Position numbers and translations under genes: made by a program. This document shows, piece after piece, positions 43,361 to 60,894 of a stretch of DNA of 64,000 nucleotides. The notes under the pieces were generated by a model. The model was not told the DNA's origin and made no database searches. It saw only the letters and a program-made list of their open reading frames with translations. The DNA is taken from contig MEDZ01000007.1 of assembly GCA_001724275.1 (NCBI GenBank), forward strand, positions 1 through 64,000, given 5' to 3'. This DNA is from Gemmatimonadetes bacterium SCN 70-22 (GTDB lineage Bacteria > Gemmatimonadota > Gemmatimonadetes > Gemmatimonadales > Gemmatimonadaceae). Position 1 is the first letter of the stretch; the number at the start of each line of letters is the position of its first letter.

Positions 43361-44043
43361 CGCTGCGCGACGAAGGGCGGCGGATCCTGGCGATCGTCTG
43401 GAAGGACCTCACCACCGAGCGGCGCTCGAAGGCGGGGATCAACGCCGTCGCCTTCATGGGAATCCTGGTCCTGCTCCTCTTCGGCTTCGCCGTCGGCCCC
43501 GACACGAACACCCTCCGCGCCGCCGCCGCCGGGGCGCTCTGGCTGGCGATCCTGTTTTCCGGCGTGCTGGCCTTCAACCGATCGTACCAACTCGAGCTGG
43601 ACGGCGGGGCGCTGGAATCCCTCCTGCTCTATCCCGGGGCGCGATGGGCGATCTTCATCGGGAAGCTGATCGCCAACCTGGTCTTCGTCCTGATCGTGGA
43701 AGCGATCGTGATCCCGGTGGCGTTCATCCTGTATCAGGTCGCCCTCCCTCCGGGGTGGGCGACACTCCTGGCCGTGACGCTCCTCGGGACCATCGGGTTC
43801 GTCACGCTGGGGACGTTCTACTCGGCGATGTCGAGCCGGAGCCGGGCGCGGGAAGTGCTCCTCCCGCTCCTCCTGTTCCCGATGCTGATCCCCGTCCTGC
43901 TGGCGGCGGTCGAGGCGTCGACGAGCCTGATGGGGGGCGACCCCATGCGTGAGGCCGGGGCTTGGGTGCGTTTGCTGGGTGCGTTCGATATCATCTTTCT
44001 CGTCGCAACCACGCTGGCCTTCGAATACGTGATCGAGGTGTGA
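43357..44043 (+). CDS. ccmB: Heme exporter permease CcmB
   Basis: The 228-residue protein has six membrane helices and the CcmB pattern, including IVWKDLTTERRSKAG at the start and AFNRSYQLELDGGALESLLLYP. It forms the membrane part of CcmAB. GTG 43357 overlaps the ccmA stop, and ccmC begins one base after the ccmB stop. Confidence 0.92.
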   Translation: MTLRDEGRRILAIVWKDLTTERRSKAGINAVAFMGILVLLLFGFAVGPDTNTLRAAAAGALWLAILFSGVLAFNRSYQLELDGGALESLLLYPGARWAIFIGKLIANLVFVLIVEAIVIPVAFILYQVALPPGWATLLAVTLLGTIGFVTLGTFYSAMSSRSRAREVLLPLLLFPMLIPVLLAAVEASTSLMGGDPMREAGAWVRLLGAFDIIFLVATTLAFEYVIEV

Positions 44044-44044
44044 G

Positions 44045-44779
44045 ATGGGAGTAACGACGGCAGACATGTCCACCTCCGCGCGTGCCGGGACACGCGCCCG
44101 TGGGCTCTGGCTGGGGGTCGGCGCCTTCGCGCTGGTGGCGGCGGCGCAGGCGTGGGCCATCGCCAGCAGCCCTGCCGACCGGGACATGGCGCACCTGCAG
44201 AAGATCATGTACGTCCACGTCCCGGCGGCGTGGAACATGATGATCGCCTTCTTCGTCGTCGCGATCGCTTCGCTGCGCTACCTGTGGAAGGGACAGGAGC
44301 GGGACGACCTGCTGGCCGCCTCCGCCGCCGAGTCGGGGACGATCCTCACCGGGCTGACGCTGGTACTGGGGATGATCTGGGCCAAGCCCACGTGGGGGAT
44401 CTGGTGGACGTGGGACCCGCGGCTGACGTCGACCGCGGTGCTCTTCTTCCTCTACGTGGGGTACCTCATCCTGCGGGCGTTCGTGGATGATCCCGACCGC
44501 CGGGCCCAGTGGAGCGCGGCCGTGGGGCTCCTGGGAGCGCTCAACGTCCCCATCGTATACATGTCGGTACGGTGGTGGCGGACGCTGCACCAGGTGCAGT
44601 CCAGTCCGCAGACCCTCGATTCGAGCTTCACGGTGGGGCTGCGGCTCAACGCGATCGCGATGATGGTGGTCCTCGTCTTCTTCATCCGGCACCGCTACGA
44701 GACGGCCAGGATGGAGCGCGAGGCGGAACTGCTGCAGGAGCGCGCCGCGTTAGGTGGCCGTGGGGGGATCAATGGATAG
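44045..44779 (+). CDS. ccmC: Heme-delivery protein CcmC
   Basis: CcmC loads heme onto CcmE in the periplasm. The protein has six membrane helices and the heme-handling tryptophan motif WGIWWTWDPR. Periplasmic histidines occur in MYVHVPAAW and near LHQVQSSP. 244 residues. It carries one of the rare TTA codons within CGTTAGGT (44748-44755). ATG 44045 is directly after ccmB. The ccmD start lies inside its last codons. Confidence 0.93.
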   Translation: MGVTTADMSTSARAGTRARGLWLGVGAFALVAAAQAWAIASSPADRDMAHLQKIMYVHVPAAWNMMIAFFVVAIASLRYLWKGQERDDLLAASAAESGTILTGLTLVLGMIWAKPTWGIWWTWDPRLTSTAVLFFLYVGYLILRAFVDDPDRRAQWSAAVGLLGALNVPIVYMSVRWWRTLHQVQSSPQTLDSSFTVGLRLNAIAMMVVLVFFIRHRYETARMEREAELLQERAALGGRGGING

Positions 44780-44921
44780 CAACACGAAGTTCATCGTCGC
44801 GGCGTTCACGATCACCTGGGCGGTGCTGCTCGCCTATGCGTGGCGCCTCGCGCGCGTGCGCGGCGAGGCCGAGCGCCGCCTCCGACACGCGAAGGCGGAA
44901 TATCCCGGAGAAGAGTCATGA
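44772..44921 (+). CDS. ccmD: CcmD-like single-helix protein
   Basis: This 49-residue gene is too short for most gene finders. It starts at ATG 44772, inside the ccmC end, and its stop overlaps the ccmE start (ATGA). The protein has one hydrophobic helix (about residues 7-24) followed by a basic, then acidic, cytoplasmic tail with RRLRHAKAE. That is the design and the place of CcmD, which ties CcmC to CcmE release. Sequence conservation in CcmD is low, so context carries the call. Confidence 0.75.
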   Translation: MDSNTKFIVAAFTITWAVLLAYAWRLARVRGEAERRLRHAKAEYPGEES

Positions 44922-45391
44922 GCGGAAATGTCGAGGGGCGCAAGCGGGCGGCCATGGTGGTCGCCGCCGTGATCGTCCTGGGAGCCTTCGGCTACCTGAT
45001 GTACGGTGGCCTGGACAAGAACGTCGTCTTCTTCCTCACGCCACAGGAGCTGCTGGCGAAGGGGACCGAAGTCGTCGACGTCCCGGTGCGACTCGGCGGG
45101 ATGGTCGCCCCCGGATCGGTGAAATGGAACGCGGAGACGCTCGACCTCCGCTTCCAGCTCAGCGACGGCGTCAAGACGGTCGAGGTGCACTCCAAGGGGG
45201 CGCCACCGCAGATGTTCCGTGACGGCATGGGGGTGGTCTGCGAAGGGCGCTTCGGCAAGGACGGCGTCTTCGAGTCGACCAACCTCATGATCAAGCACTC
45301 CGAGGAGTATCATCCGCCCAAGCCCGGGCAGACGCCGCAGGAGATGTACAAGGCGATGTTCGAGACACTGCGCGAGGACGGCAAGTCATGA
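44918..45391 (+). CDS. ccmE: Heme chaperone CcmE
   Basis: CcmE holds heme covalently and hands it to CcmF. The 157-residue protein has an N-terminal membrane anchor (about 12-32), an OB-fold domain, and the heme-binding HxxxY motif: H127 and Y131 in IKHSEEYHP. This is the histidine form, not the Cys variant. ATG 44918 overlaps ccmD and the stop overlaps ccmF. Confidence 0.95.
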   Translation: MSGNVEGRKRAAMVVAAVIVLGAFGYLMYGGLDKNVVFFLTPQELLAKGTEVVDVPVRLGGMVAPGSVKWNAETLDLRFQLSDGVKTVEVHSKGAPPQMFRDGMGVVCEGRFGKDGVFESTNLMIKHSEEYHPPKPGQTPQEMYKAMFETLREDGKS

Positions 45392-47442
45392 CGCGCCTCC
45401 TCGGGTACAACGCGCTGATGGCGGCCCTCGCCGTGGCGGCCTTCGGCGTCGTGGCGGTCCCGATCGGCATCCGGCGCTCGCGCGAGTCGCTCATTCACGC
45501 GACCTACTCGGCGACGTACGCCGTGTTCGCGCTCGTCACCGTGGCCACGTTCGCGATGATCTTCGCGCTCGTGACCCACGACTTCAGCGTGGGCTATGTG
45601 GCGCAGGTCGGGAGCCGGGCCACGCCGCTCTTCTATACCATCATCTCGCTGTGGGGGGCGCTGGAGGGGTCGATCCTCTTCTGGGCGTGGGTCCTCGCCC
45701 TCCTGTCCGCGCTGGTCGTCTTCTGGAACCGGGACCGCGAGGGGGCGCTCATCCCCTACACGACGATGGTGATGCTGGCCACCAGCGTCTTCTTCCTCAT
45801 CCTGCTGGTGGGTCCGGCCAACCCGTTCACGCCGGTCTCGCCCGTCCCCCCCGATGGCCCCGGGCCCAACCCGCTGTTGCAGAACCACATCCTGATGGGG
45901 GTGCACCCCCCGCTGCTCTACTTGGGATACGTGGGGCTCACCGTGCCGTTCGCCTTCGCCGTCGGGGCGATGGCGGCGGGCGAGGTGGCCAGCGACGACT
46001 GGATCCGCCTCTCGCGCCGCTGGACGCTGGGAGCCTGGGCCTTCCTGACCGCGGCGATCATCGCCGGGATGTGGTGGTCCTATGAAGTGCTCGGATGGGG
46101 CGGCTACTGGGCGTGGGACCCGGTCGAGAACGCCTCGTTCATGCCGTGGCTCACCGCGACCGCGTTCCTCCACTCGGTGATGGTCCAGGAGCGGCGCGGC
46201 ATGCTGAAGCTCTGGAACCTCAACCTCATCGTCACGACGTTCGCCCTGACCATCCTGGGCACCTTCCTGACGCGCTCGGGCGTGCTGTCGTCGGTGCACG
46301 CCTTCGGCGAAGGGCCGATCGGGATGTACTTCCTGGTGGCCATCGCCATCACGCTGGTCGTGTCGCTCGCCCTGGTCGCCGGCAATTCCGAGCAGCTGTC
46401 CAGCGACGGGCGCCTCGACAGCGTCGCGTCGCGCGAGACCGTCTTCCTGCTCAACAACCTGATGCTGACGGCCTTCACCTTCACGGTGCTGGTCGGGACG
46501 CTCTTCCCCATCGTGGCCGAAGCGGCGCGCGGGGTGAAGGTGAGCGTGGGGGAGCCGTTCTTCAACAAGATGACGCTCCCGTTGTGTGCGGCGCTCCTCT
46601 TCCTGATGGGTGTGGGGCCGGCGCTCCCCTGGCGCCGCGCGTCGAAGGAGGTGGTACGTCGCCAGCTGCTGCCGCCGACCATCGGGGCGTTCGTGGGGGC
46701 ACTCGTCGCCATCGGCGCCGGGGCGCGCGAGGTGTACGCGGTGTTGTCGTTCGCCTTCGCCTCGTTCGCCCTGGTGGCCAACGTGCGCGAGTACGTGACC
46801 GGGGTGCGGGCGCGCATGCGGGTCCGCAACGAGGACGCAGCGACCGCGCTGGCGCGCCTGGTGGGTGCCAACCGGCGGCGGTACGGCGGGTACGTCGCGC
46901 ACCTGGGGGTGGTCGCGGTGGCACTCGCCATCGCGGCGTCATCGACCTTCCGCTCCGAGCACGAGGCGACGCTCAAGAAGGGCGAGTCGATGCGCGCCGG
47001 GGCGTTCGAGCTCCGGCTCCTCGAGGTCTACGGGCGTGAGGAGCCGCAACGCTCCCGCATCGCGGCGTCCGTGGCCATCCTCCGGGAAGGGCGCGAGATC
47101 GGGCGGCTCGACCCGGCGATGAACTTCTATCCCACGTCGCAGCAGCCGATCCCGACGCCGGCCGTCCGCAGCCGGCCGTGGGGCGACATCTACCTGAACC
47201 TGATGGCCTTCAAGCCCGACGGCTCGGACGCCACCATCAAGGTGATCCTCGAGCCGCTCGTCCCGTGGATCTGGTTCGGCGGTGGCATCATCTGCCTGGG
47301 GGCGATCATCAGTATGTTCCCCACGCGGCGGCGCTCGCCGGCGTGGATGGGGGCGGTGGTGCCGCCGGTGGGGGTCGGCGTGTCGCCGGTGAGCGGGGCG
47401 GCGGGAATCATGGCGACCAATTCGCTCGAGGGAGCCGACTGA
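45388..47442 (+). CDS. ccmF: Cytochrome c heme lyase CcmF
   Basis: CcmF attaches heme to CXXCH apocytochromes. The 684-residue protein has about 14 helices, the WWD-type motif WGGYWAWDPVENASFMPW, and the MGVHPPLLYLGY segment. Length and position between ccmE and ccmG are standard. Overlapping starts and stops on both sides suggest translational coupling across the operon. Confidence 0.95.
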   Translation: MTRLLGYNALMAALAVAAFGVVAVPIGIRRSRESLIHATYSATYAVFALVTVATFAMIFALVTHDFSVGYVAQVGSRATPLFYTIISLWGALEGSILFWAWVLALLSALVVFWNRDREGALIPYTTMVMLATSVFFLILLVGPANPFTPVSPVPPDGPGPNPLLQNHILMGVHPPLLYLGYVGLTVPFAFAVGAMAAGEVASDDWIRLSRRWTLGAWAFLTAAIIAGMWWSYEVLGWGGYWAWDPVENASFMPWLTATAFLHSVMVQERRGMLKLWNLNLIVTTFALTILGTFLTRSGVLSSVHAFGEGPIGMYFLVAIAITLVVSLALVAGNSEQLSSDGRLDSVASRETVFLLNNLMLTAFTFTVLVGTLFPIVAEAARGVKVSVGEPFFNKMTLPLCAALLFLMGVGPALPWRRASKEVVRRQLLPPTIGAFVGALVAIGAGAREVYAVLSFAFASFALVANVREYVTGVRARMRVRNEDAATALARLVGANRRRYGGYVAHLGVVAVALAIAASSTFRSEHEATLKKGESMRAGAFELRLLEVYGREEPQRSRIAASVAILREGREIGRLDPAMNFYPTSQQPIPTPAVRSRPWGDIYLNLMAFKPDGSDATIKVILEPLVPWIWFGGGIICLGAIISMFPTRRRSPAWMGAVVPPVGVGVSPVSGAAGIMATNSLEGAD

Positions 47443-48065
47443 TGAACTGGAAGCGGGCAGCGACCGCGTCGCTCGTCGCCATCCCGATCGTCCTCCTGCT
47501 GGGCTACGGCATGACGCGCGATCCCAAGGAGATCCCCTCGCCGCTCCCCGGGCGAGCGGCGCCGCCGTTCTCGCTGGCGGTCTTCGCGGAGGGAGAGGGG
47601 GCCCAGCGTCGTGCCGTCGGCGACTCCGTCCGCCTGGCCGATCACGAGGGCGAGGTGGTGGTGCTCAACTTCTGGGCCTCATGGTGCCTGGCGTGCCGCG
47701 ACGAGCACAGCACGCTGTCGCAGGTGGCCGAGGCGTACGCCTCGAGAGGGGTGAAGTTCTACGGGGTGCTGTACAACGACGTTCCGGGCAACGGGACGCG
47801 CTGGATCGCCGAGATGGGGGGGCAGAGCTACCCCTCGCTGAACGATCCGCGGACGCGAACCGCCATCGACTACGGACTCTACGGGGTCCCCGAGACATTC
47901 TTCATCGGGCGCGATGGACGGGTGGCGTACAAGCACGTGGGGCCGGTGACGGCCACGGTGCTGGCGTGGAAGCTCGATTCGCTCCTGGCGCAGCCGGCAC
48001 CGCCGGGAGCGGTGCCGGGGGGCGACTCGGCCAGGCGCGTCGCCGTTCCCACGGCGGGGGAGTGA
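47442..48065 (+). CDS. ccmG: Thiol-disulfide oxidoreductase CcmG/DsbE
   Basis: CcmG reduces apocytochrome heme-site cysteines before heme attachment. A membrane anchor (about 5-22) leads into a thioredoxin fold with the active site WCLAC (C82, C85) in NFWASWCLACRDEH and the cis-proline region GVPETFFI. 207 residues. ATG 47442 overlaps the ccmF stop. Confidence 0.94.
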   Translation: MNWKRAATASLVAIPIVLLLGYGMTRDPKEIPSPLPGRAAPPFSLAVFAEGEGAQRRAVGDSVRLADHEGEVVVLNFWASWCLACRDEHSTLSQVAEAYASRGVKFYGVLYNDVPGNGTRWIAEMGGQSYPSLNDPRTRTAIDYGLYGVPETFFIGRDGRVAYKHVGPVTATVLAWKLDSLLAQPAPPGAVPGGDSARRVAVPTAGE

Positions 48066-48067
48066 CG

Positions 48068-48562
48068 ATGCAGCTGACGGAGACGACGCGCGGGCGTCGC
48101 GGCCGCCGAGGGCGCCGGCTGGCGAGGACGTTGCTTCTGGTGATGGCGCTGGCGGCCACGACGGGGCGAGGGGAGGGGCAGGAGCGGAGCGCCCCGGTCT
48201 CGAACGACCCCGTCCTGGAGGAGAAGACGCGCCAGGTGGCGTCGGAGCTGCGGTGCCCGGTGTGCCAGGGGAACAGCCTCCAGGATTCGCCGTCGGAGCT
48301 GGCGCAGGAGATGAAGGGGGTCGTGCGCGACCAGCTGGCGTCGGGGAAGACGCCGGAGCAGGTCAAGCAGTACTTCATCGACAAGTACGGCGAGTGGATC
48401 CTGTTGGAGCCCAAGGCGTCGGGTTTCAACCTGGTGGTGTACCTCCTCCCCCTCGTGATGGTCGTGATCGGTGGCGGGGTGATCTGGCTGGCGGTGCGGA
48501 AGTGGACCGCCGGGCCGGCTGGGACGGACGACGACGGTGCGGCGACGGAGGCTGCGCCCTAG
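48068..48562 (+). CDS. ccmH: Cytochrome c maturation protein CcmH
   Basis: CcmH handles apocytochrome thiols beside CcmG and CcmF. The 164-residue protein has a signal-anchor, the LRCPVCQ redox motif (C63, C66), the helical DSPSELAQEMKGVVRDQL segment, and a C-terminal membrane helix. No ccmI domain is attached or follows. The operon ends at a strong terminator 80 bp on. Confidence 0.94.
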   Translation: MQLTETTRGRRGRRGRRLARTLLLVMALAATTGRGEGQERSAPVSNDPVLEEKTRQVASELRCPVCQGNSLQDSPSELAQEMKGVVRDQLASGKTPEQVKQYFIDKYGEWILLEPKASGFNLVVYLLPLVMVVIGGGVIWLAVRKWTAGPAGTDDDGAATEAAP

Positions 48563-48955: not shown

Positions 48956-50422
48956 ATGACGAGACGAAGTCAAACATTCGCAGCCGCGACCGGCATGGGC
49001 GTGCTGGTCCTCGTCGCGTTAGGCGGCTGCGTGGACGAGAAGATCGTCTACCGGGACGGCCCGAACTACGCGTCGCCGCCGCAGGCGGCGGCGAGCTTCG
49101 TGGGATACAGCGACGAAGCCAACAAGGTCACCGTCTGCGGCAACTGCCACGTGGGGCAGCAGGCCAAGTGGAAGCAGACGGCGCATGCCGACGCGTTTGC
49201 GACGCTCGAGAAGAGCGGCTCCATGCAGGGACTCTGCCAGGCGTGCCACACGGTCAACGACCGCGGCAACGCGCTGTCGGACACGCTGGCGGGGTGGCGC
49301 ACCACCAAGGACAAGCGCTACCACGACGTGCAGTGCGAGAGCTGTCACGGGGCCGGGCTGGCGCACATCCAGCGGCCGACGCGCGGGCAGATGCTTCCGT
49401 CCATCGCCGCCGACACGGGGACGAAGGCGACCAATGGGTGCGCCGAGTGCCACAGCGGCACGCATCACCCCTACGTCGACGAGTGGCGGCAGACGCGGCA
49501 CGCCCGGGTGTACAGCGGCACGTTCTCCAGCGGCGTCGCCAACCCCGCGTGCCAGTCGTGCCACATGGGGCAGAAGATCCTCGAGGCGTGGGGAGTGAAC
49601 ACCAACTTCGTGGAGAAGGCCGCGACGATCACCCCGGCGAACGCCGTCGGGACGACCTGCGCGGTCTGCCATGACCCACACGGCTCCAACAACCCCAAGC
49701 AGTTGCGGTTCCCGATCGACGTGCCGGACCTGGACCAGAACCTGTGCATGAAGTGCCACTACCGGCGCGCGAATCCCGACTTCACGTCGAGCCGCCTGTC
49801 ACCGCACTCGCCGCAGGGGCCGATGCTCCTGGGTGAGGCCGGGTGGTGGCCGCCGGGGCTCCAGGCCGACAGCACGCTGGTGGCCACGCACGGTACCTCG
49901 CGCAACCCGAAGCTCTGCGCCACCTGCCACGTCAACCGCTTCGACGTCACCGACAAGGCGACCGGCAAGTTCGTGCAGACCGTCACCGGGCACCGCTTCA
50001 CGGCGATCCCCTGCGTGGACGGGAACGGGCTCCCGCTCCCGCCGGACAAGCAGAACTGTTCGGTCACCGCTCGGTCGTACAAGTCGTGCGCCGGATCGGG
50101 GTGCCACTCCGAGACGACCGCGCGGACCGTCTTCGTGACGGCCGAGGCCGACATTGCCGGACTGGCCGCGGGGCTCAACGCGATGCTCGCCAAGGTCCCC
50201 GCGTCCGAGATGGCGGTTCCCAAGGTCAACTCGGCGCGTGGAGCCACGTTCAACGTCGCACTGGCGCTCCACCCGGGATCGGCGGCGCACAACCCGTTCC
50301 TGGCCAAGGCGCTGCTGCGGGCCAGCATCGTCGCGGTCGCCAACGACTACGGCATCACCCCGCCGCCGGGGCTGCAGCTGGCGCCGTTCGACAAGCAGCT
50401 TCGCGCGCGGAGCAGCAACTAG
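48956..50422 (+). CDS. Multiheme cytochrome c lipoprotein (nine heme motifs)
   Basis: The protein has 488 residues. ATG 48956 has an AAGGAGGAGG site eight bases upstream. The leader ends in a lipobox with the lipidated Cys at residue 25 (ALGGC). Eight CXXCH motifs (CGNCH, CQACH, CESCH, CAECH, CQSCH, CAVCH, CMKCH, CATCH) and one CX4CH (CAGSGCH) give up to nine hemes. The C-terminal 120 residues have no heme site. It is a periplasmic or surface lipoprotein that could feed or drain the conduit genes downstream. The fold resembles decaheme or cytochrome c554-type modules by motif spacing only, so no exact relative is named. Confidence 0.85.
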   Translation: MTRRSQTFAAATGMGVLVLVALGGCVDEKIVYRDGPNYASPPQAAASFVGYSDEANKVTVCGNCHVGQQAKWKQTAHADAFATLEKSGSMQGLCQACHTVNDRGNALSDTLAGWRTTKDKRYHDVQCESCHGAGLAHIQRPTRGQMLPSIAADTGTKATNGCAECHSGTHHPYVDEWRQTRHARVYSGTFSSGVANPACQSCHMGQKILEAWGVNTNFVEKAATITPANAVGTTCAVCHDPHGSNNPKQLRFPIDVPDLDQNLCMKCHYRRANPDFTSSRLSPHSPQGPMLLGEAGWWPPGLQADSTLVATHGTSRNPKLCATCHVNRFDVTDKATGKFVQTVTGHRFTAIPCVDGNGLPLPPDKQNCSVTARSYKSCAGSGCHSETTARTVFVTAEADIAGLAAGLNAMLAKVPASEMAVPKVNSARGATFNVALALHPGSAAHNPFLAKALLRASIVAVANDYGITPPPGLQLAPFDKQLRARSSN

Positions 50423-50446
50423 GCGGTGTCACCTCGCCGCCTTGTG

Positions 50447-50484
50447 ACGAAGCGGGTGAACGCCTCATCGTTCACCCGCTTCGT
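50447..50484. terminator. 15-bp perfect hairpin between multiheme genes
   Basis: Arms 50447-50461 and 50470-50484 (ACGAAGCGGGTGAAC and complement) pair without mismatch around eight bases. It sits between the nine-heme lipoprotein and the NapC-fusion gene. No T-run follows, so it may be a stabilising or attenuating hairpin that sets unequal levels of the two transcripts. Confidence 0.75.
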
Positions 50485-50531
50485 GTCTGGCGGGACGCCA
50501 CGATGATCGCCACCTCCCACTCCTCCCGATC

Positions 50532-52751
50532 ATGATCGGATCCGCAATCGCCGCGCTCCTCCAGGGGGTGCAGGGAACCGGCCAGGGGGACACCATCCAC
50601 GGCCCGCTCTCGGTCGACTCGATCCGCATGGACCAGCCGCCCCTTCCCGGCGGCGTCGCGCGCATCTTCCGCTTCCTCTTTTCCGGCGTTCCGCAGTGGA
50701 TCCAGGTTGCCGGCGTGGTGGTGGGGGCGATCGTGGCCGTGGTGGTCGTCACCGTGGCGTGGAAGCGGCGCGCCGACATCATCGCCTGGCTCGGGGCCAG
50801 GTCGCACGGCTACAAGGTGGCGTTAGGCGCCAGCGTGGCGACCGTGCTCCTGGCGGCGGGACTCGTGGGCGGCTGGTCGTACAACTACATGATGCAGGAG
50901 AACGACTTCTGTTCGAGCTGCCACGTCATGCGATCGGCGTTCGGCAAGTTCCAGACGTCGGAGCACTCCAAGCTCCAGTGCCACGCGTGCCACCAGCAGT
51001 CGATCTTCGCCAGCATGAAGGAGCTGTACTACTGGGTCCTGGAACGCCCCGACAAGATCCCGTCGCACTCTCCGGTCCCCGACCGGATCTGCGCCGAGTG
51101 CCACATCACCCAGCAGCGCGACAGCGTCTGGAAGTACATCAGCGCGACCGCCGGCCACCGGGTGCACCTGGAGTCGGACTCCTCGGCGCTCAAGGACGTG
51201 ATGTGCGTGACCTGCCACGCCAAGGAGGTCCACGCCTTCGCCCCCACCGACCTGTCGTGTAGCCAGTCCGGGTGCCACGAGAAGGTGAAGGTCACGCTGG
51301 GGAAGATGGCCGACCAGACGTCGCTGCATTGCACGACCTGCCACGAGTTCGCCCGCCCCGTGAACGAGACGGCACCGGTCGACTCCAGCCGCAAGGAGCT
51401 GGTCCCGTTCAAGCCGCAGTGCTTCGCCTGTCACGAGATGCGCGAGAAGCTGGCGGAACAGGGGCTGGACAACGATCCGCACAAGGCCAGGTGCGGAGAG
51501 TGCCACAACCCCCACAAGCAGACGAAGGCCGAGGGGGCCATCAAGAGCTGCGCCACCTCCACCTGCCACGCCAGCGCCGACACGCTCACCGCCTTCCATC
51601 GCGGCCTGGGCGATCACGCGATCGATGATTGCACCGCCTGCCACAAGGCGCATTCGTGGAAGGTGGAGTCCACCAACTGCATCGACTGCCACAAGTCGAT
51701 CTTCGAGGACCGCCCGCTGCGCCGCGGGCGGCTGCGGCGGACGGTGACGCCGCAGACCCCCTCCCCGGGGGCGAGCGCGAAGGTGCCGCAGAGCTCGCGC
51801 GCGGCGTCCTCGGCGAGTGCGCCCGCGGCGGCGGCCGGGACGTGGCCGGGGCCCTACATGCCACATGCATCCGTCCTGCCGCATGCCGCCGCGGTGCCGC
51901 AGGGCACGGCGGGGCGGGCGACCATGCGTGCGCCCGGAGGGCCCTCGGCCGTCGGGGCGACGCTGGAAGGCGTTGACTGGTGGGACGCGCCGCCAGCGGC
52001 CGATGGAGGGAGCGAGGAGCTGGAGCGTCCAGCGTCGCCCGCCGCGGGCGCGCCGACGTCCGCAATCCGCTCCGCATCGTCGTCGCTGGCGCGGCAGGGC
52101 GTGGCGCCGCGCACGCAAACGGGAGCGTTGGCACCACCGCAGCAGGGCGCCCGCCGGCCATCGGCGGCGCCCTTTCAGCATTCGCGGCATCGCAAGCTGG
52201 CGTGTACCACCTGTCACAGCACCGACCGGTCGCACGGCGAGCTCATCATCCGCGCCCCGGCCTCGTGCCAGGGGTGTCACCACGCCAGCGATGAGCGCGC
52301 CGGGAAGTGTTCCGCTTGTCACACCGCGGGCGAACTGGCGGCACCGCACGCCGTACCGGTCACGGTGAAGGTGTCGACGCGCCAACGCGAGCTGACACGA
52401 ACGCTCACGTTCGAGCACACGCGCCACGCGAACCTGGCGTGCAGCTCCTGCCACGCGGACGATGCCGCGCGCTCGCTGGTGAAGGACTGCACCGGCTGCC
52501 ACGTCGACCATCACTCCGTGCAGCGCGATTGCACCTCGTGCCACGCGTCGCCGAGGACGGAGCATACGCGCTGGACCCATGACGGGTGCGCGGCGTGTCA
52601 CAGCGACCGCACGGTGGCGCAGCTTCCCCCGGTGCGCACGCTGTGCCTGAGCTGCCACCCGGATCAGCGCACGCACTACGCCGCCAAGGAGTGTGTCGTG
52701 TGCCATCGCGTGAGCTGGAACGAGGGGCGTGATCGCGGAGGGACCCGATGA
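50532..52751 (+). CDS. NapC-like membrane cytochrome fused to a second multiheme half (20 heme motifs)
   Basis: A 739-residue protein. Two membrane helices (about 55-75 and 95-115) precede a NapC/NirT-style heme part with NDFCSSCH. The N-half (to residue about 393) has nine CXXCH and two CX4CH (CSQSGCH, CATSTCH) sites. A Ser/Ala/Pro linker (about 394-546) follows, and a C-half has nine more CXXCH. NapC proteins take electrons from quinol, and here one chain could carry them from the inner membrane across the periplasm. ATG 50532 is used; no strong ribosome-binding site is visible, and ATG 50628 is an alternative. It overlaps the barrel gene by ATGATG. A fusion of two once-separate genes is the simplest history. 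Confidence 0.85.
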   Translation: MIGSAIAALLQGVQGTGQGDTIHGPLSVDSIRMDQPPLPGGVARIFRFLFSGVPQWIQVAGVVVGAIVAVVVVTVAWKRRADIIAWLGARSHGYKVALGASVATVLLAAGLVGGWSYNYMMQENDFCSSCHVMRSAFGKFQTSEHSKLQCHACHQQSIFASMKELYYWVLERPDKIPSHSPVPDRICAECHITQQRDSVWKYISATAGHRVHLESDSSALKDVMCVTCHAKEVHAFAPTDLSCSQSGCHEKVKVTLGKMADQTSLHCTTCHEFARPVNETAPVDSSRKELVPFKPQCFACHEMREKLAEQGLDNDPHKARCGECHNPHKQTKAEGAIKSCATSTCHASADTLTAFHRGLGDHAIDDCTACHKAHSWKVESTNCIDCHKSIFEDRPLRRGRLRRTVTPQTPSPGASAKVPQSSRAASSASAPAAAAGTWPGPYMPHASVLPHAAAVPQGTAGRATMRAPGGPSAVGATLEGVDWWDAPPAADGGSEELERPASPAAGAPTSAIRSASSSLARQGVAPRTQTGALAPPQQGARRPSAAPFQHSRHRKLACTTCHSTDRSHGELIIRAPASCQGCHHASDERAGKCSACHTAGELAAPHAVPVTVKVSTRQRELTRTLTFEHTRHANLACSSCHADDAARSLVKDCTGCHVDHHSVQRDCTSCHASPRTEHTRWTHDGCAACHSDRTVAQLPPVRTLCLSCHPDQRTHYAAKECVVCHRVSWNEGRDRGGTR

Positions 52752-54232
52752 TGCACTCGATGCTTCGCTGGCGTGTCGCCGCGGGTTTGGGCGCCGTCCT
52801 CGGCGTGGGACTCGGCGCGACACCAGTCGCGGCCCAGGGGATCCGCATCACCGGGACGACGTGGCTCCAGTCGATCGACCTGCGCCCGCTGCGCCAGGAC
52901 TCGGTGTTGGCGTCGCAGACGGCGGGGACGGGATTGGTCCGGCGTGCTTCGGACGGGCAGCTGGTGCAATGCCCCGACGGGATGGCGTACTGCTACTTCG
53001 CCACCTCCGGCGCCCGCGAGACGACAAACCCGCTGCTGCAGGACCTGTCGATCGCGGCGTGGGGGCTGGGAGAGGGGATCAGCGCCCATGCCCACCTGCG
53101 CGCCCGCACGTCGGTGGGGGGCGAACCGGCGCTCTGGCCGCGCCTCGACGACCACTTCGACGCGCTCGAGGCGTACCTCCAGGTCGATCGCCGTCTCGGG
53201 CGTGCACGCCTCGGGCGCCTGTGGGCCACGAGCGGGCTGGGCGCCTACAACTTCGATGGCGCGTCGCTGATGCTGCGACGGGGGGCGCACTCGGTGGAGG
53301 CCTTCGGCGGGCGGGCGCTCGTGCAGGGACTCAACGAGCCGTACACCAGCGCCGAGATCGGGGCCGTGGACGACCTCCCCCCGGAGGACCAGGGATACCT
53401 GATCGGCGTGAGGCTGCGAGCGCGGCCGTCGGACCTGAGCGCCATCTCGGCCGTGTACCAGCGCGTGATCTTCGCCGATCGCTCGTCGCTCTACTCGGAG
53501 CGCGTGGCGCTGGACGGGATGACGCGCCTGGCCGGCATCGCGCTCGACGGGAGCGTGACGTACGACGTGGCGGGCGAGGTGCTCAACGAGGCGCGGCTGC
53601 GCCTCGCGCGACGCCTCCCGGCCGGCTTCGACGGCGCCATCGAGGGGCGGCGGCATCGCCCCTTCTTCGAACTCTGGACCATTTGGGGGGCCTTTGCCCC
53701 GATCGGCTTCGACGAGGGGCGCGCGGAACTGTCGTGGCGGACGGCGCGCGAGCGGCTGCAGCTGACGGCCCATGGCGGCTATCGTACCTACGCCGAGGAC
53801 CACGCGGGGGTCAACTCCTTGCCGCTGCGCTCCGACGGATGGCGGGCCGGGGTCGAGGGGACCTGGCTGGCCTCCGAGCAACTGGCGGCGTCGGCGAACT
53901 ACGCCACCGACATCGGCTTCGGCGCCTCGCGCACCGACGTGTCGGGCGGCGTGCGCTGGACGCCGCACGAACGCGTCACGGTGGGCGCCACCGTCTCGGG
54001 CTTCCAGTCGATCTACGAGTTTCGCGTGGGGACCGGGCGGGTCGTCGGGGGGATGGTCAATGGCGCCGTGCGCCTGACGCCGGATTTCCGCGTCGCCTTC
54101 GACGGCGGCGTGTATCGTCACCGCCTGACCCACGATGCGCCGGGAACCGATTGGAGCCAGCGGCGCGCCTCCGTCCGCCTCGAGTGGGTCGTGGGGAGCG
54201 AGCCCGGGATGTCCGGAGGGAGGGGGCGATGA
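52748..54232 (+). CDS. Outer-membrane beta-barrel candidate of the conduit
   Basis: A 494-residue protein with a signal peptide (ending PVAAQ), no heme sites and no lipobox. The body alternates short polar/hydrophobic strands with Asp/Arg turns, as in a large porin. A pair of cysteines (CPDGMAYC) near residue 77 may cap a loop. It is placed between two multiheme genes with coding overlaps on both sides, the arrangement of MtrB/PioB-type porins that hold a cytochrome through the outer membrane. No MtrB signature is clear, so the family is not claimed. Confidence 0.72.
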   Translation: MMHSMLRWRVAAGLGAVLGVGLGATPVAAQGIRITGTTWLQSIDLRPLRQDSVLASQTAGTGLVRRASDGQLVQCPDGMAYCYFATSGARETTNPLLQDLSIAAWGLGEGISAHAHLRARTSVGGEPALWPRLDDHFDALEAYLQVDRRLGRARLGRLWATSGLGAYNFDGASLMLRRGAHSVEAFGGRALVQGLNEPYTSAEIGAVDDLPPEDQGYLIGVRLRARPSDLSAISAVYQRVIFADRSSLYSERVALDGMTRLAGIALDGSVTYDVAGEVLNEARLRLARRLPAGFDGAIEGRRHRPFFELWTIWGAFAPIGFDEGRAELSWRTARERLQLTAHGGYRTYAEDHAGVNSLPLRSDGWRAGVEGTWLASEQLAASANYATDIGFGASRTDVSGGVRWTPHERVTVGATVSGFQSIYEFRVGTGRVVGGMVNGAVRLTPDFRVAFDGGVYRHRLTHDAPGTDWSQRRASVRLEWVVGSEPGMSGGRGR

Positions 54233-55773
54233 GACACGCCATGCGGTCCCTGGCGATGGCGCTCCTCGCGACGCTGGCGGCGACGGCCGGCGCGCCGCTC
54301 GAGGCGCAGGTGTACGCGCGGACGGGGCGCCCGCCGTTCCCGCACCAGAGGCACGAGAAGCTGTTCCCCACCTGCACCGGGTGCCACGCGGGGGCGATCA
54401 CCGGCGAGGCGTCGGCGCTCCTCCCGCCCGCCGCGTTATGCGGCGAATGCCACGACGGGACGATCTCCAGGCGCGTGCGCTACGAGGGCGCCTCACCGCG
54501 CCAGGATTTCCTCAAGTTCGCGCATCGCGAACACGCCGCGCAGGTGGATTCGGCGGGGCGCCTGTGCACCACGTGCCACGCGCGCGGACCGGATGCGCGC
54601 TGGCTCGACGTGCAGCGTGCCCGGCCGGAGACGTGCCAGTCGTGCCATACGCATCGCGCCACCGCGCACCTGGCGCCCGACAACCGGTGCGCCACGTGTC
54701 ATATCCCGCTGGCCCGGTCCCGCACCATCACGGCCGAGCAGATGGCGGGGCTGCCGAAGCCGCCGTCGCACGACGCCCCCCAGTTCGCGGCGCGGCACGC
54801 GGTGTCGGCCGCCGACGCCCAGGCGCAGTGCGCCACCTGCCACACGCGGGACTCGTGCGCGCGTTGCCACGTGAACGCCGCCGAGCTCGCGCCGGTCACC
54901 CAGCTGCAACCCGACGCGCGGATGGCCACGGCGCTGCGGGGGAAGCCGGCGTCGTACCTCACGCCCGACGATCACCGCGCCGACGCGTGGGTCGGGGCGC
55001 ATGGCCAGGCGGCCACGGCCAGCATCGCCCGGTGCGCCTCATGCCACGCCCAGCCGAGTTGCACGGTGTGCCATATCGGGAGCTCGGCGCGCGACGTCAT
55101 CCGGCGGCTTCCCGCCGGGCGGACGGGGGCTCCGGGGGTGCAGCTCGTCCTCCCGCGACGCGTGGCCACGACGCCGTCGCTGGCCATGCCGCACACCACG
55201 CTGGCGCAGCCGGTGGCCAACGTGCAGGGCCCGCGGGGGGTGCGCGCCGGAGGCGACACCACCCGCACCGTCGTGCGCGTCCACCCGGCGGGGTTCGAGC
55301 GCAACCATGCGGCGACGGCCGCGAGCGGGCGCCTGACGTGCGAGGGGTGCCACGCGCAGCGATTCTGCTCCGACTGCCACGCCGGCGAGTCGCGACGCGG
55401 CTTCCACCCCGCCAACTTCGTGCAGCGCCACGCCCCGGAGTCGTACGGGCGCGACCTCGAGTGCGCATCGTGCCACAACACCGAGGTCTTCTGCCGCAGC
55501 TGTCACCAGGCGCAGGGCATCGCCTCCCGGGGACAGCGTGCCGGGGTGTATCACAACGGACAGCCGCTATGGCTCCTCCAGCACGGGCAGGCGGCGCGCC
55601 GGGGGTTGCAGAGCTGCACGACGTGTCACACCCAGCGTGATTGCATGCAGTGTCACTCGCAGCGGGGGTGGGGGGTGAACCCGCACGGCCCCGACTTCGA
55701 TCCGTCGCGGCTCGGCGCCCGCGCCCGCGCGATGTGCGCGCGGTGCCATATTTCCGATCCCACCGTCCGATGA
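54229..55773 (+). CDS. Secreted 16-heme cytochrome c
   Basis: ATG 54229 overlaps the barrel stop and has a GGAGGGAGGGGG site. The 514-residue protein has a signal peptide (ending PLEAQ) and sixteen CXXCH motifs, about one per 30 residues: nine in the first half, then a 90-residue gap, then seven. There is no lipobox or membrane helix, so it should be soluble in the periplasm or held in the porin. Many extra histidines provide bis-His ligation. It overlaps the following lipoprotein gene. The high density of hemes suggests a wire rather than an enzyme. Confidence 0.88.
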   Translation: MRHAMRSLAMALLATLAATAGAPLEAQVYARTGRPPFPHQRHEKLFPTCTGCHAGAITGEASALLPPAALCGECHDGTISRRVRYEGASPRQDFLKFAHREHAAQVDSAGRLCTTCHARGPDARWLDVQRARPETCQSCHTHRATAHLAPDNRCATCHIPLARSRTITAEQMAGLPKPPSHDAPQFAARHAVSAADAQAQCATCHTRDSCARCHVNAAELAPVTQLQPDARMATALRGKPASYLTPDDHRADAWVGAHGQAATASIARCASCHAQPSCTVCHIGSSARDVIRRLPAGRTGAPGVQLVLPRRVATTPSLAMPHTTLAQPVANVQGPRGVRAGGDTTRTVVRVHPAGFERNHAATAASGRLTCEGCHAQRFCSDCHAGESRRGFHPANFVQRHAPESYGRDLECASCHNTEVFCRSCHQAQGIASRGQRAGVYHNGQPLWLLQHGQAARRGLQSCTTCHTQRDCMQCHSQRGWGVNPHGPDFDPSRLGARARAMCARCHISDPTVR

Positions 55774-56252
55774 TGAGGTCGATGCGTCTCCGTCCGTCAT
55801 TTCTCGTGCTCCTCGCCGTGCTGGCCTGCGGTCGCTCCAACGGCACACAGCAGGACAGCCTCGCGGCCATCCTCCCGCCGGGGCACGTGCCGATCACCAC
55901 GCCGTCGGGGGGCACGGTGCTCCCCGCCGTCACCAGGGCGCTGCTCGACAGCGGCAACACCGCGTTCCGGGTGAAGGACTTCCAGGGGGCGCTGGCGTAC
56001 TACCACAAGGCCGCGCTCAGCGCTCCCGAGCACGCCGCCCCCTGGTTCGGCACGTACATGGTGGGCAAGGCGATCAACGACACGGCGCTCGCCGACAGCG
56101 CCCTTCGGATGGTGCGCGCCCGCGCGCCGGAGATGCAGTCGCATCCGGCCACTCCCTCCGTGCCGGGAACGACGCCGGACTTCGTCACGCCGGGAGCACC
56201 CTACTCGCCGCACGGGACGCCTCCGCCGGCACGGGGCAAGTCCTCGTCCTGA
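55770..56252 (+). CDS. Small lipoprotein with a TPR-like helix pair
   Basis: A 160-residue lipoprotein (LLAVLAC). The middle contains a TPR-like pair (NTAFRVKDFQGALAYYHKAAL, then a second helix), and the tail is Pro/Thr-rich. It shares its start with the stop of the 16-heme gene, so it belongs to the same operon and may be an assembly or scaffolding factor for the conduit. No further homologue is recognised. Confidence 0.7.
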   Translation: MMRSMRLRPSFLVLLAVLACGRSNGTQQDSLAAILPPGHVPITTPSGGTVLPAVTRALLDSGNTAFRVKDFQGALAYYHKAALSAPEHAAPWFGTYMVGKAINDTALADSALRMVRARAPEMQSHPATPSVPGTTPDFVTPGAPYSPHGTPPPARGKSSS

Positions 56253-56368: not shown

Positions 56369-56947
56369 ATGCTCAAGGTCCGCGACATCATGACCCCCAG
56401 CGTCGTCACCTTGGAGCCCGACCAGACGCTGCGCGACGCCGTGGAAGTCCTCGTCTCGTGCCGGATCGGCGGCGCGCCGGTGGTCGAGGGCGACCGGGTG
56501 GTTGGCGTCCTCTCGGCGACGGACATCCTGGAGTTCGAGTCGGTGACCCCCGCGCCGGAGTCGAGGCGCGAGGAAGACGAGGCGCGGGAGGACGACGACG
56601 CGGAGGTGGAGGAGTGGACGGAGGGCGATCCGCTCTCGTCGAGCTACTTCACCGACTGGTGGCCTAACGAGGGCCCCGACGTGGCCGAGCGCATGTCGTC
56701 GTCGCAGGGGCCGCAGTGGGACCTGCTGGCCGATCACTCGGTCGGCGAGGCCATGTCGCGCACGGTGTGCACCGTCGATGCGGGCATGGAGGTGTCCCAT
56801 GCGGCGCAGCGCATGCTGGCGGCGGGGGCGCAGCGCGCGCTGGTCACCGAGGAAGGGGCACTCGCCGGCATCGTGACCACGACCGACATCGTGCGGGCCG
56901 TGGCCGAGCGCCGGCTCATGGTGCGCCAGTTCGTCTTCGAGAAGTAG
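56369..56947 (+). CDS. CBS-domain pair protein
   Basis: A 192-residue protein with two CBS motifs (VRDIMTPSVVTLEPDQTLRDAV, and VGEAMSRTVCTVDAGMEVSHAA) split by a long acidic insert (about 70-115). CBS pairs bind adenosyl ligands and sense energy state. The start ATG 56369 has a GGGAGGT site. A 116-bp gap separates it from the conduit genes, so it is probably not in that operon. Its target is unknown. Confidence 0.88.
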   Translation: MLKVRDIMTPSVVTLEPDQTLRDAVEVLVSCRIGGAPVVEGDRVVGVLSATDILEFESVTPAPESRREEDEAREDDDAEVEEWTEGDPLSSSYFTDWWPNEGPDVAERMSSSQGPQWDLLADHSVGEAMSRTVCTVDAGMEVSHAAQRMLAAGAQRALVTEEGALAGIVTTTDIVRAVAERRLMVRQFVFEK

Positions 56948-57482
56948 CCGGGACGGCTTCGGGCGGAAGCCGCGGCGCGGTCGTGCCGGGCGACTTCCGT
57001 GTCGCCCACCACCGCCCCTGCTGCGCCGGCGCCATTGGATCGCTGTGCGTGGAGGTGAAGGTCCCCTCGATCCGGTCGCCCGCCAGCGTGCCGCGAAAGA
57101 CGGTGCTGAGGGTGCAGCCGCAATCAGGCGAGGGATACGGCTCCAGCGTCCCGGAGACGACATTGGCGGAGATGCGCACGAAGGAGATGGACAGCACCTT
57201 CGGCGAGGTCGGCGTCATCCCCGACGGGGCGCGGGGCTCGGTGGGGAGCGGGGCGAGGGCCCGCGGGATCATGACCACGTCGCCGAAGGCGGTGTCGCTC
57301 CCGGCGCGCAGCGTGAAGGTGATGCTCCCGCTTCGCCCCGTCTCGACGCTGGTGTATTCTCCAGTCCACTCACCAGCCAACCGATCGATCTCGCTGGTCG
57401 CGCCGGCCACGTGCACCGGTGAAGGGTTGGCCGCGCACGCGGCGGTGAGCGACACGAGCGCGGCGATCGTGATGACTCGCAT
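56916..57482 (-). CDS. Hypothetical lipoprotein with a beta-rich domain
   Basis: A 188-residue lipoprotein (SLTAAC). It has beta-strand pattern LAGEWTGEYTSVETGRSGSITFTL and a cysteine pair CGC near residue 122, like small lipocalin-size secreted domains. The last 11 residues overlap the CBS gene 3' end convergently by 32 bp. Start ATG 57482 is used on the minus strand. No family is recognised. Confidence 0.65.
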   Translation of the reverse strand: MRVITIAALVSLTAACAANPSPVHVAGATSEIDRLAGEWTGEYTSVETGRSGSITFTLRAGSDTAFGDVVMIPRALAPLPTEPRAPSGMTPTSPKVLSISFVRISANVVSGTLEPYPSPDCGCTLSTVFRGTLAGDRIEGTFTSTHSDPMAPAQQGRWWATRKSPGTTAPRLPPEAVPATSRRRTGAP

Positions 57483-57563
57483 GAGACCTCCAGTGGTGGA
57501 CGTCGAGACGATGGACCGGGGACGACGGGAATTGCGGCTGACGAGCGGCGCGCGGGGGACGGC

Positions 57564-59435
57564 GTGACGGCTCCCCTCAACATACCCCGCGGCCACCTCG
57601 GCTGGGCGGCGATCCTGCATCCCGCCGTCGCGTTGCTGGGCATCCTCGTCGGCGCGGGGGCGTACTGGCGCGTGGGGGCCGGCGCGGCGGGGACCGTCTG
57701 GCTGGTCGCCCTCGCCATCACCGGCCTCCCGGTCCTCGCGCGGACCGCGGTCGCCGTGGTCCGCGGCAACTTCGCCACCGACGTGGTGGCGGCGCTCGCC
57801 ATCGGCGCGTCGCTCGCCCTGCGCGAGCCCCTCGCCGGCCTCGTGGTCGTGCTGATGCAGACCGGGGGCGAGGCGCTGGAGCGGTACGCCGCCGGGCGCG
57901 CCTCGGCCGCGGTGCGCGCCCTCGAGGACCTGGCGCCGCGCGTCGCGCACCGCGTGACGGTGGGCGGCGAGGTCGACATCACGGTCGACGAGATCGTCGT
58001 GGGAGACCCGCTCCTGGTGCGGCCGGGCGAGATGGTCCCGTGCGATGGCGACATCGTCGACGGGCACTCGGAGCTCGATACGTCGCGCCTGACCGGGGAG
58101 TCGCTGCCGCGGGTGGTGGCGCCGGGCGCCAGGGTGATGAGCGGGATGCTCAACGGCAGCGGGGCGTTCGTCATGCGGGCGAGCGCCGTGGCGAGCCAGA
58201 GCCAGTACGCCCGCATCGTCGAGCTCGTGCGTTCGGCCGAGGCGTCCAAGTCGCCGCTGCAGCGCCTGGCCGATCGCTATGCAGGGTGGTTCACCCCGTT
58301 CACGCTCGTGGCGTGCGCCGTGACCTGGCTCGTGACCGGCGACGCGACGCGCGTGCTGGCCGTCCTCGTCGTCGCGACGCCCTGTCCGCTGATCCTCGCC
58401 ACCCCGATCGCCATCATCGGCGGGATCAACCGCGCCGCCCGGCGACACATCATCGTCCGCAGCGGCTCGGCGCTCGAGCGGCTCTCGGACGCGCAGGTCG
58501 CCGTCTTCGACAAGACGGGGACGATCACCGAAGGACGCGCGCGGGTGAGCCGGGTGACCGTGGTCGACGGCGTGTCGGAGCGCGAGCTGTTGCGGCTGGC
58601 GGGAGCGGTCGAGCAGCGGTCCGGTCACCTGCTCGCCCGATCGCTGGTCGATGTGGCGCGCGCGGCGGCCGGCCCGCTCCCGACACCCGCGCACGTGCGC
58701 GAGTCCCCGGGACGCGGGGTCGCCGGCGACGTCGAGGGCCGCCGGGTCGTGGTGGGCTCCCGCGCCTACGTGCTCGAGGCCCTCGGACTCCCGCCGGACA
58801 CCGCGACCCCGCTCGACGACGGCTCGGCGACGGTGCGCGCCCTGGTGGGAGTCGACGGCGCGCTGCGCGGAGCGGTGGACTACGACGACCAGGTCCGCCC
58901 GTCGGCCGCCCCCCTGCTGGCCGAGCTGCCATCGTTAGGCGTGCGGCGGACGCTCCTCCTCTCGGGCGACAATGCGCGCAACACACGCGCCGTGGCCGAT
59001 CAGGTCGGGATCGCCGAGGCGCTCGGCGACCTCCTCCCGGGCGACAAGGTGGAGCGCGTCGCCGAGCTGTCGCAGGTGGAGGGACGCGTCCTCATGGTGG
59101 GCGATGGCACCAACGACGCGCCGGCGCTCTCGCGCGCCGACGTCGGGATCGCCATGGCGAGCGCCGGCGGCGGCATCACCGCCGAAGCCGCCGATGTCGT
59201 GATCCTCGTCGACGACCTCGCCCGCGTGGGCGAGGCCATACGCATCGCCCAGCGGACGATGCGCATCGCGAGGCAGAGCATCCTGGTCGGGCTCGGGTTG
59301 AGTGCGGTCGGGATGCTCGCGGCGGCCCTCGGCTACCTCCCGCCGGTGGCCGGTGCGCTGGTGCAGGAGGGGATCGACGTGGCGGTCATCCTCAATGCCG
59401 TGCGCGCCAGCCAGGTCCCGGCCGCGACGCGATAG
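57564..59435 (+). CDS. Heavy-metal P-type ATPase with TPCPL motif
   Basis: The protein has 623 residues, no N-terminal metal-binding domain and about seven to eight helices. The phosphorylation site is D316 in DKTGT. TGES, MVGDGTNDAPAL and the transmembrane motif TPCPL (C274) are clear. In most P1B pumps this site is CPC, SPC or APC, so the metal cannot be assigned. The HP locus reads SGHLLA where SSHPLA is usual. The gene starts at ATG/GTG 57564 just after the divergent lipoprotein. A UspA gene follows. Confidence 0.87.
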   Translation: MTAPLNIPRGHLGWAAILHPAVALLGILVGAGAYWRVGAGAAGTVWLVALAITGLPVLARTAVAVVRGNFATDVVAALAIGASLALREPLAGLVVVLMQTGGEALERYAAGRASAAVRALEDLAPRVAHRVTVGGEVDITVDEIVVGDPLLVRPGEMVPCDGDIVDGHSELDTSRLTGESLPRVVAPGARVMSGMLNGSGAFVMRASAVASQSQYARIVELVRSAEASKSPLQRLADRYAGWFTPFTLVACAVTWLVTGDATRVLAVLVVATPCPLILATPIAIIGGINRAARRHIIVRSGSALERLSDAQVAVFDKTGTITEGRARVSRVTVVDGVSERELLRLAGAVEQRSGHLLARSLVDVARAAAGPLPTPAHVRESPGRGVAGDVEGRRVVVGSRAYVLEALGLPPDTATPLDDGSATVRALVGVDGALRGAVDYDDQVRPSAAPLLAELPSLGVRRTLLLSGDNARNTRAVADQVGIAEALGDLLPGDKVERVAELSQVEGRVLMVGDGTNDAPALSRADVGIAMASAGGGITAEAADVVILVDDLARVGEAIRIAQRTMRIARQSILVGLGLSAVGMLAAALGYLPPVAGALVQEGIDVAVILNAVRASQVPAATR

Positions 59436-59610
59436 CCCCCGCCAGCGCCGCTCTCCTGTGCGGCATCGCCCGACAGCGCCCGTCGGCGTCCCTCACGATC
59501 TCTCAGCGGCAGGCGGACAGACGCTTCCCTCCAGCGGCCGCAATATCGGGTTGAGCTGCGCAGCGTCCGCGCCCGGCGGACCCGCAGCGGTCGCATCGGA
59601 GGATCCGACC

Positions 59611-60894
59611 ATGTCAACCGCACTCGCAACCCCTCGGGCGGGAGTGGCTACCGTGACGAGCGACCTGAACCTGACCGGCCCCATCATCGTTGCCACCGAC
59701 GGAACGGCGTCGGCGAGCGCGGCCATCAAGGCGGCGGCGCTGATGGCCGACCGCACCGGTGCCCACGTGACGGTGCTGGCCGTCCTCGAGCCGCTCCCGC
59801 TGGTGGCGGCCGATTACGGACTCCTGCTCCCCCCCGCCGAGACGGACGAGGCGCGCCGGCAGGCGCTCGCCCAGCGTGTCCGCGATCAGCTGTCGGAAAC
59901 CGTCGGCGCACGCCCCAACTGGGATGTGCAGGTGCGCGACGGCGATCCGGCCGCCGTCATCGCCCGCATGGGGCGTGAGGCCAAGGCCCGCATGATCATC
60001 GCCGGCATCGGCCATCACGACCTGCTCGACCGGATGTTCGGGGGCGAGACGGCCCTGCACACGTTGCGGCTGTCGCGGGTCCCGGTCCTGGCCGTTCCCC
60101 CGGGATTCACCGCACTCCCGCAGCGCCTGGCCATCGCGATCGACTTCAGCGAACCGTCCGTCATCGCCGCGCGCGCGGCCCTCGCCCTCCTGCCGTCGGT
60201 CACCATGGCATACCTGGTCCATGTCGCCCCCCGGCTCGAGCTGCAGCCCGAGGCGTACGCGGCGTGGATGTCCGACTACAGCGAAGGTGTGGAGCCCGCG
60301 TTCGCCCGCGTGCGCCAGCAGCTGGAGTTCCCGGCCGGCGTGACGGTGGAAACCATCACCCTGACCGGAAAGCCCACCAAGGCGCTCCTGGACTTCGTGA
60401 AGTCGGCGCACGTCGACGCCATCGTCACCGGGAGCCGCGGGGCGGGGCTCGTCGATCGCATCCTCGTGGGGAGCACGGCGACGGGGCTCATTCGCGGCGC
60501 GCACTGCGCCGTCTTCGCCGTGCCGACTCCCCTGGGCACCGAGCCTCGCCGAGCGGCCGGCTCGCCCGACGAGATCCCGGAGCACGAGTGGGCCGATGCC
60601 CTCGAGGCGTTCACCCGGCGCAACGCGGGACGCATCGCGACCCTCGAGGTCGACGATCCGGAGATCGGCGCGCAGGCGCAGCAGCACGACTACCCCTTCC
60701 TCGGCGCGGCCTACGATCACAACGACCGCCGCATCGAGCTCATGCTGGGTGACATGGAGAACACCACCCGGCACCTCACGCGCGGCATTGGCGACGTACG
60801 GCAGCTGGACCTCCTCAAGGATGCCGCCGGACGAGACCGGGTGCTTCGAATTGCGCATGGCTCGGGACAAACCATCCTGACGCTCGCTCGCTGA
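59611..60894 (+). CDS. UspA-UspA-DUF5335 fusion protein
   Basis: ATG 59611 has a GGAGGA site. The 427-residue protein has two UspA-type domains (about 20-165 and 170-310; GDPAAVIAR and GSRGAGLVDRILVGSTATGLIR are the characteristic stretches). The C-terminal 105 residues match DUF5335, a small domain of unknown role. The second UspA domain has the fuller ATP-type motif GSRG-9x-GSTA. Fusion to DUF5335 suggests a link between stress signalling and a sensor module. Confidence 0.83.
   Translation: MSTALATPRAGVATVTSDLNLTGPIIVATDGTASASAAIKAAALMADRTGAHVTVLAVLEPLPLVAADYGLLLPPAETDEARRQALAQRVRDQLSETVGARPNWDVQVRDGDPAAVIARMGREAKARMIIAGIGHHDLLDRMFGGETALHTLRLSRVPVLAVPPGFTALPQRLAIAIDFSEPSVIAARAALALLPSVTMAYLVHVAPRLELQPEAYAAWMSDYSEGVEPAFARVRQQLEFPAGVTVETITLTGKPTKALLDFVKSAHVDAIVTGSRGAGLVDRILVGSTATGLIRGAHCAVFAVPTPLGTEPRRAAGSPDEIPEHEWADALEAFTRRNAGRIATLEVDDPEIGAQAQQHDYPFLGAAYDHNDRRIELMLGDMENTTRHLTRGIGDVRQLDLLKDAAGRDRVLRIAHGSGQTILTLAR

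Follow-up and report, generated by a model that had tools for sequence, protein, structure and literature searches.

Five neighbouring genes in the order A-B-C-D-E, all on the forward strand and together carrying 45 heme motifs, were analysed in the first 64,000 nucleotides (the window) of contig MEDZ01000007.1 of Gemmatimonadetes bacterium SCN 70-22 (assembly GCA_001724275.1). We suggest that this cluster encodes a complete trans-envelope porin-cytochrome conduit consisting of a β-barrel of its own type, an inner-membrane quinol cytochrome with a tether and a terminal lipoprotein resembling OmhA and OcwA, a reading to which we assign a probability of roughly 0.78. As in porin-cytochrome conduits, a gene for a predicted outer-membrane β-barrel adjoins multiheme cytochrome genes in this cluster. 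A path from quinol to the cell surface had been proposed in an earlier note made from the letters of the window (the original prediction), and both the structural model of the barrel and the phylum-wide co-occurrence of the genes support it.

Composition, conservation and distribution of the cluster

Gene A (48956–50422) encodes a nine-heme lipoprotein of 488 amino acids with eight CXXCH motifs, one CX4CH motif and the lipobox LVALGG followed by Cys. Gene B (50532–52751) encodes an inner-membrane NapC/NrfH-like cytochrome of 739 amino acids with 20 hemes (18 CXXCH and two CX4CH motifs). It is followed by gene C (52748–54232), whose product of 494 amino acids has a signal peptide, zero heme motifs and a predicted outer-membrane β-barrel, and by gene D (54229–55773), which encodes a secreted 16-heme cytochrome of 514 amino acids with 16 CXXCH motifs and a signal peptide. 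Gene E (55770–56252), encoding a small lipoprotein of 160 amino acids with a lipoprotein-type leader and a weak TPR match, is present in only some of the related loci. Gene calls and motif counts agreed with the five-gene make-up of the original prediction, namely the 9, 20, 0 and 16 motifs of A to D and the small lipoprotein. The overlap of the last four genes, also noted there, amounts to four nucleotides each at B/C, C/D and D/E. A scan for promoters and terminators gave no signal exceeding that of shuffled sequence.

The heme motifs are invariant among the aligned homologues down to about 35–40% identity, that is, all nine of A (23 homologues), all 20 of B (23) and all 16 of D (24), which rules out chance or artefact as the source of the motif counts. 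Beyond the proximal His residues, the alignments hold further conserved His: nine in A (each in 21–23 of the 23 sequences and equal in number to its hemes), exactly 20 in B and 15 in D. These residues are numerous enough that nearly all 45 hemes could be bis-His ligated, as in low-spin wires, and the nine extra His of A suggest that this might apply to every heme of that protein.

The genes also occur together elsewhere in the phylum, as the original prediction had anticipated. Among 298 sampled Gemmatimonadota genomes, C was found in 84 (more than one quarter) and D in 86; the two occur together in 83, leaving one of the 84 carriers of C without D, and A was present in 75 of these 84; the co-occurrence figures, including the Fisher p, are inflated by the shared ancestry of the genomes. 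Four further weak matches to C, with E-values of about 1e-5 and belonging to another family, were excluded from these counts. Gene D lies directly after C in all 74 loci from named records, with the four-nucleotide overlap in 71 of them, and B and C overlap in 53 of 60 loci. Where enough sequence was available, A lies upstream in 36 of 43 loci. The distribution of B was drawn from the locus neighbourhoods, and a full-length B was found in 25 of the 43 loci and its C-terminal part only in 12. Of all gene pairs, C and D show the closest agreement between their distance matrices (correlation 0.95). That order and overlaps persist in sequences sharing as little as about 30% identity argues strongly for joint function. 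Genes C and D form the core of the cluster, followed by A, and it is the input at the inner membrane that varies; in eight loci, the core is accompanied by other cytochromes with 9, 11, 14 or 19–24 hemes, which stand in place of B or beside it.

All relatives found by a genome-wide pattern scan belong to Gemmatimonadota, and as far as we searched, the cluster is specific to this phylum. A record labelled Candidatus Kuenenia stuttgartiensis (loci L134 and L137) was considered as spread outside the phylum and rejected. Its label looks wrong, since the break that divides the gene between contigs 21 and 8 recurs exactly in the sampled genome G232, which the genome search assigns to the window's own family.

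The predicted barrel and the three cytochromes

The AlphaFold2 model of C, built with 29 homologues, has 22 transmembrane strands and no plug (predicted local distance difference test, pLDDT, 83.4; predicted template modelling score, pTM, 0.77). Strand amphipathicity in the alignment reaches z = 8.6 against shuffled columns, and the exterior is hydrophobic, whereas Arg, Asp and Glu abound in the interior. Nearly all top-ranking matches of the model in Foldseek and VIA are transmembrane barrels, with TonB-type receptors scoring highest in VIA (Z of about 19). The prediction for C is an outer-membrane β-barrel of 22 strands that lacks heme and plug, and the barrel assignment of the original prediction is upheld against the alternative of a globular periplasmic protein. 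MtrB (6r2q_B) is also among the Foldseek matches (E = 1.2e-7), but a common barrel fold does not show a common function.

At the family level, C had no match in Pfam or NCBIfam. The MtrB/PioB model PF11854 matched none of the 29 homologues of C and no protein of the window's own genome, while 17 of 200 other genomes of the phylum hold matches above its cut-off. An hhalign comparison of C with MtrB of Gemmatimonadota gave a probability of 43% over 65 columns. On these grounds, we rejected C as a relative of MtrB/PioB at the family level. A TonB receptor would fit the number of strands and the Z-score; we rejected it in view of the missing plug domain in the model, the lack of a family match and the obligate cytochrome neighbours. 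The original prediction had stated that no gene carries clear Mtr, Omb, Ext or Pio signatures. For MtrB/PioB, this holds for C. It does not hold for A, which matches DmsE/MtrA models below their cut-offs and, by profile, OmhA, OcwA and MtrA.

Profile matches of A to solved structures comprise 6qvm (2.3e-18), which we took to be OmhA from the entry name and a chain of 681 residues, equal in length to the published OmhA gene, as well as OcwA (6i5b, 2.7e-14) and MtrA (6r2q_A, 2.9e-8). The TIGR03508 model of decaheme DmsE/MtrA proteins gave 48.1 bits against a cut-off of 192.2, and A has nine motifs, not ten. The comparison of A with MtrA of Gemmatimonadota by hhalign reached an E-value of 5.7e-20. 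These sequence comparisons place A in the DmsE/MtrA/c554/OcwA superfamily; homology at this level is supported, and A falls outside the curated MtrA/DmsE decaheme family. The lipobox Cys is invariant in all 23 homologues, and the residue at position +2 is never Asp, so that A would be sorted to the outer membrane if the E. coli rule holds in this host. Both OmhA and OcwA are reported to reduce Fe(III) at the cell surface (PMC7829351, PMC6703420). Relatedness to these two proteins, together with a lipobox lacking Asp at +2, makes A the best candidate for contact at the outer face, where it might be the terminal surface oxidoreductase.

The N-terminal part of B shows the trait of NapC/NrfH proteins, in which a transmembrane region precedes a first heme of the CxxCHxM type. 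Two hydrophobic segments predicted by hydropathy (amino acids 57–75 and 94–112; 50700–50867) are followed by the heme CSSCHVM, the Met of which (Met133) is kept in 22 of the 23 homologues. B matched the NrfH model TIGR03153 with an E-value of 6.5e-10 and 39.2 bits, below the cut-off of 134.2, and PF03264 with 19.5 bits, below the cut-off of 24.1; its profile match to the solved NrfH structure (2j7a_C) was 3.1e-10. The NrfH-like matches fall in a module of 11 hemes (50910–51692), the first of which is CSSCHVM. It is separated by a Pro/Ala-rich linker (51693–52172) from a module of nine hemes resembling class III and c7 cytochromes (52173–52706; Pfam Cytochrom_CIII, 1.8e-9). All 23 homologues share the succession of 11 hemes, a gap and nine hemes. 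The gap between hemes 11 and 12 is wider than any other heme spacing in the protein; it varies from 65 to 175 amino acids, measures 175 in the B of the window, and is often rich in Pro and Ala; in three loci, the two halves are encoded by separate genes divided at the gap. We propose that the gap could act as a tether, allowing the nine-heme half to shuttle to the outer membrane. Tethered heme domains have an experimental precedent in PgcA of Geobacter sulfurreducens, in which heme domains on flexible linkers were shown to transfer electrons by tethered diffusion (PMC11520253). PgcA is a triheme extracellular protein, whereas B would tether a quinol cytochrome across the periplasm.

Proposed electron path and alternative explanations

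Electrons might enter the conduit from the inner-membrane quinol at the NrfH-like N-terminal part of B and run along its 11 hemes, after which the nine-heme module on the flexible linker would bridge the periplasm to D. D could be the 16-heme low-spin wire that crosses the outer membrane in or through the 22-strand barrel of C, and A, as the OmhA/OcwA-related lipoprotein, could act at the outer face as terminal oxidoreductase. The insertion of D in C, the surface exposure of A, the tethered diffusion of the linker and export as the main direction are parts of this path that we infer. Simple geometry gives a C-alpha radius of about 19–20 Å for 22 strands, between the 14 Å of a 16-strand porin and the 23 Å of a 26-strand barrel such as MtrB, so that a cytochrome could fit in the modelled C. 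We give even odds to the more specific proposal of an arrangement particular to Gemmatimonadota. In this proposal, a single inner-membrane cytochrome with its own tethered nine-heme shuttle works with a barrel unrelated to MtrB/PioB, and the three cytochromes with their 45 hemes join quinol, wire and surface without free periplasmic carriers.

Several observations weigh against this path. The structure model of D is poor (pLDDT 58), and its Foldseek search, which returned no matches, including none to filament cytochromes, is uninformative because of this poor model. The lumen-facing positions of C are no more conserved than the lipid-facing ones (p = 0.45) and thus give no direct signal of a partner within the lumen; as both sides are alike, we dropped lumen conservation as evidence for a cytochrome in C. 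The lipobox of A is silent on the leaflet, and A could face the periplasm. Its relatedness to MtrA would also permit A to be the cytochrome in the barrel. Finally, 6 of the 43 loci have no B.

An alternative wiring would put A into the barrel and D either into the periplasm or outside the cell. It would account for the homology of A to the MtrA of Gemmatimonadota, but we regard it as quite unlikely. Against it stand the conserved lipoprotein nature of A, its 54 amino acids per heme and the alignment of its C-terminal region with OcwA and OmhA; moreover, A is missing from some genomes carrying C and D, whereas D is almost never missing. Polymeric cytochrome nanowires are known, and D could likewise be released as an extracellular filament, with C as its exporter or anchor. 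Its signal peptide, the density of 32 amino acids per heme and the fully His-rich chain would suit such a filament. However, C and D adjoin and overlap in a strict one-to-one manner, which resembles the pairs of barrel and wire, and we consider a filament highly improbable.

The role of A might also differ from an interface with minerals or electrodes. As a member of the superfamily that includes c554, NrfA and OcwA, and with its matches to DmsE models, A could reduce a small soluble acceptor, either outside the cell or in the periplasm, in the manner of DmsE-linked or c554/NrfA-like enzymes; OcwA itself reduces nitrite slowly (PMC6703420). Nine extra conserved His for nine hemes leave no clear open catalytic heme, however, and the operon contains no separate reductase subunit, which makes this role improbable. 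Somewhat less improbable, although still unlikely, is that the same conduit works inward, with Fe(II), minerals or a partner cell as the electron source and B as a quinone reductase. Electron uptake through NapC-type proteins and porin-cytochrome conduits is known from organisms with MtoAB or PioAB (PMC5566968), and no feature of the sequence sets the direction. Nevertheless, the closest solved relatives of A are reductases, and RuBisCO is absent from the window's own genome (4.7 Mb, 99.98% complete), making Calvin-cycle autotrophy on Fe(II) unlikely. Together with the NapC/NrfH-type quinol module, these two points make export of electrons more likely than their uptake.

Relation to known conduits and genomic surroundings

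In its proposed form, the cluster shares with MtrCAB, MtoAB and PioAB a barrel with a multiheme wire, a lipoprotein cytochrome at the surface, as MtrC-type systems have, and a quinol dehydrogenase of the NapC/NirT type (CymA). It differs in its non-MtrB/PioB barrel, which is predicted to have 22 instead of 26 strands, in a wire of 16 instead of 10 hemes, in the OcwA/OmhA-like terminal cytochrome and in the 20 hemes within the single chain of B. In Geobacter, the barrel of the porin-cytochrome cluster OmbB-OmaB-OmcB likewise adjoins the wire cytochrome, but the heme numbers there are 8 and 12; this comparison is based on gene layout and heme numbers. The pairing of C and D also resembles the two-gene clusters of Anaeromyxobacter and Kuenenia, in which a barrel accompanies a cytochrome with 12 or 14 hemes (PMC4245776). 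PCC3 of iron oxidisers similarly combines a barrel, two many-heme cytochromes and an inner-membrane partner (PMC5566968). That partner, however, has five helices, HX13H motifs and no NapC domain, and the outer cytochromes have a median of 34 hemes, whereas the only inner-membrane candidate in our cluster, B, has two hydrophobic segments and a NapC/NrfH match. OmhA of Carboxydothermus ferrireducens and OcwA of Thermincola potens are the closest solved relatives of A, and OcwA has nine hemes as well. Unlike A, which has a lipobox, they come from single-membrane hosts without a barrel, and OcwA has two open hemes, whereas the conserved His of A suffice for nine bis-His hemes.

Little has been documented on the use that Gemmatimonadota, a widespread soil phylum, make of extracellular electron acceptors. 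MtrCAB has been reported in one Gemmatimonadetes genome (PMC8805035), and there is literature on CbcL and ImcH homologues (PMC6295460). A canonical decaheme MtrA stands beside an MtrB/PioB barrel in 17 of 200 Gemmatimonadota genomes, the window's own genome not being among them; these pairs exceed the single genome found in the literature. The cluster described here had not been described in the papers retrieved by our literature search, the coverage of which left out most subscription journals and preprints. If a phylum-wide conduit indeed uses a barrel invisible to the MtrB/PioB model, marker-based surveys miss such conduits, and extracellular respiration or electron uptake in Gemmatimonadota would become directly testable. 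The 11 + 9 tethered heme protein B would offer a concrete, testable explanation of electron transfer across the periplasm in the absence of soluble shuttles. The NrfB-like family had no match in the window's own genome.

Genes for cytochrome c maturation lie directly upstream of the cluster on the same strand (42242–48562). Pfam matches identified ccmB, C, E, F, G (with the AhpC-TSA/redoxin fold) and H, and an ABC ATPase occupies the position of ccmA. This confirms these genes of the ccm operon that the original prediction called complete. In six loci of the set, ccm genes were likewise linked to the cluster. Directly downstream (56369–60894), genes for a CBS-domain protein, a P-type ATPase and Usp-like proteins are partly retained in near relatives. 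ARAGORN called a tRNA-Ala (GGC) at 56474–56556, within the open reading frame of the CBS-domain protein (56369–56947); this call is probably false because Rfam found zero RNAs in the window. In seven related loci, a divergent pair of c7-like open reading frames with four and five heme motifs lies upstream of the cluster.

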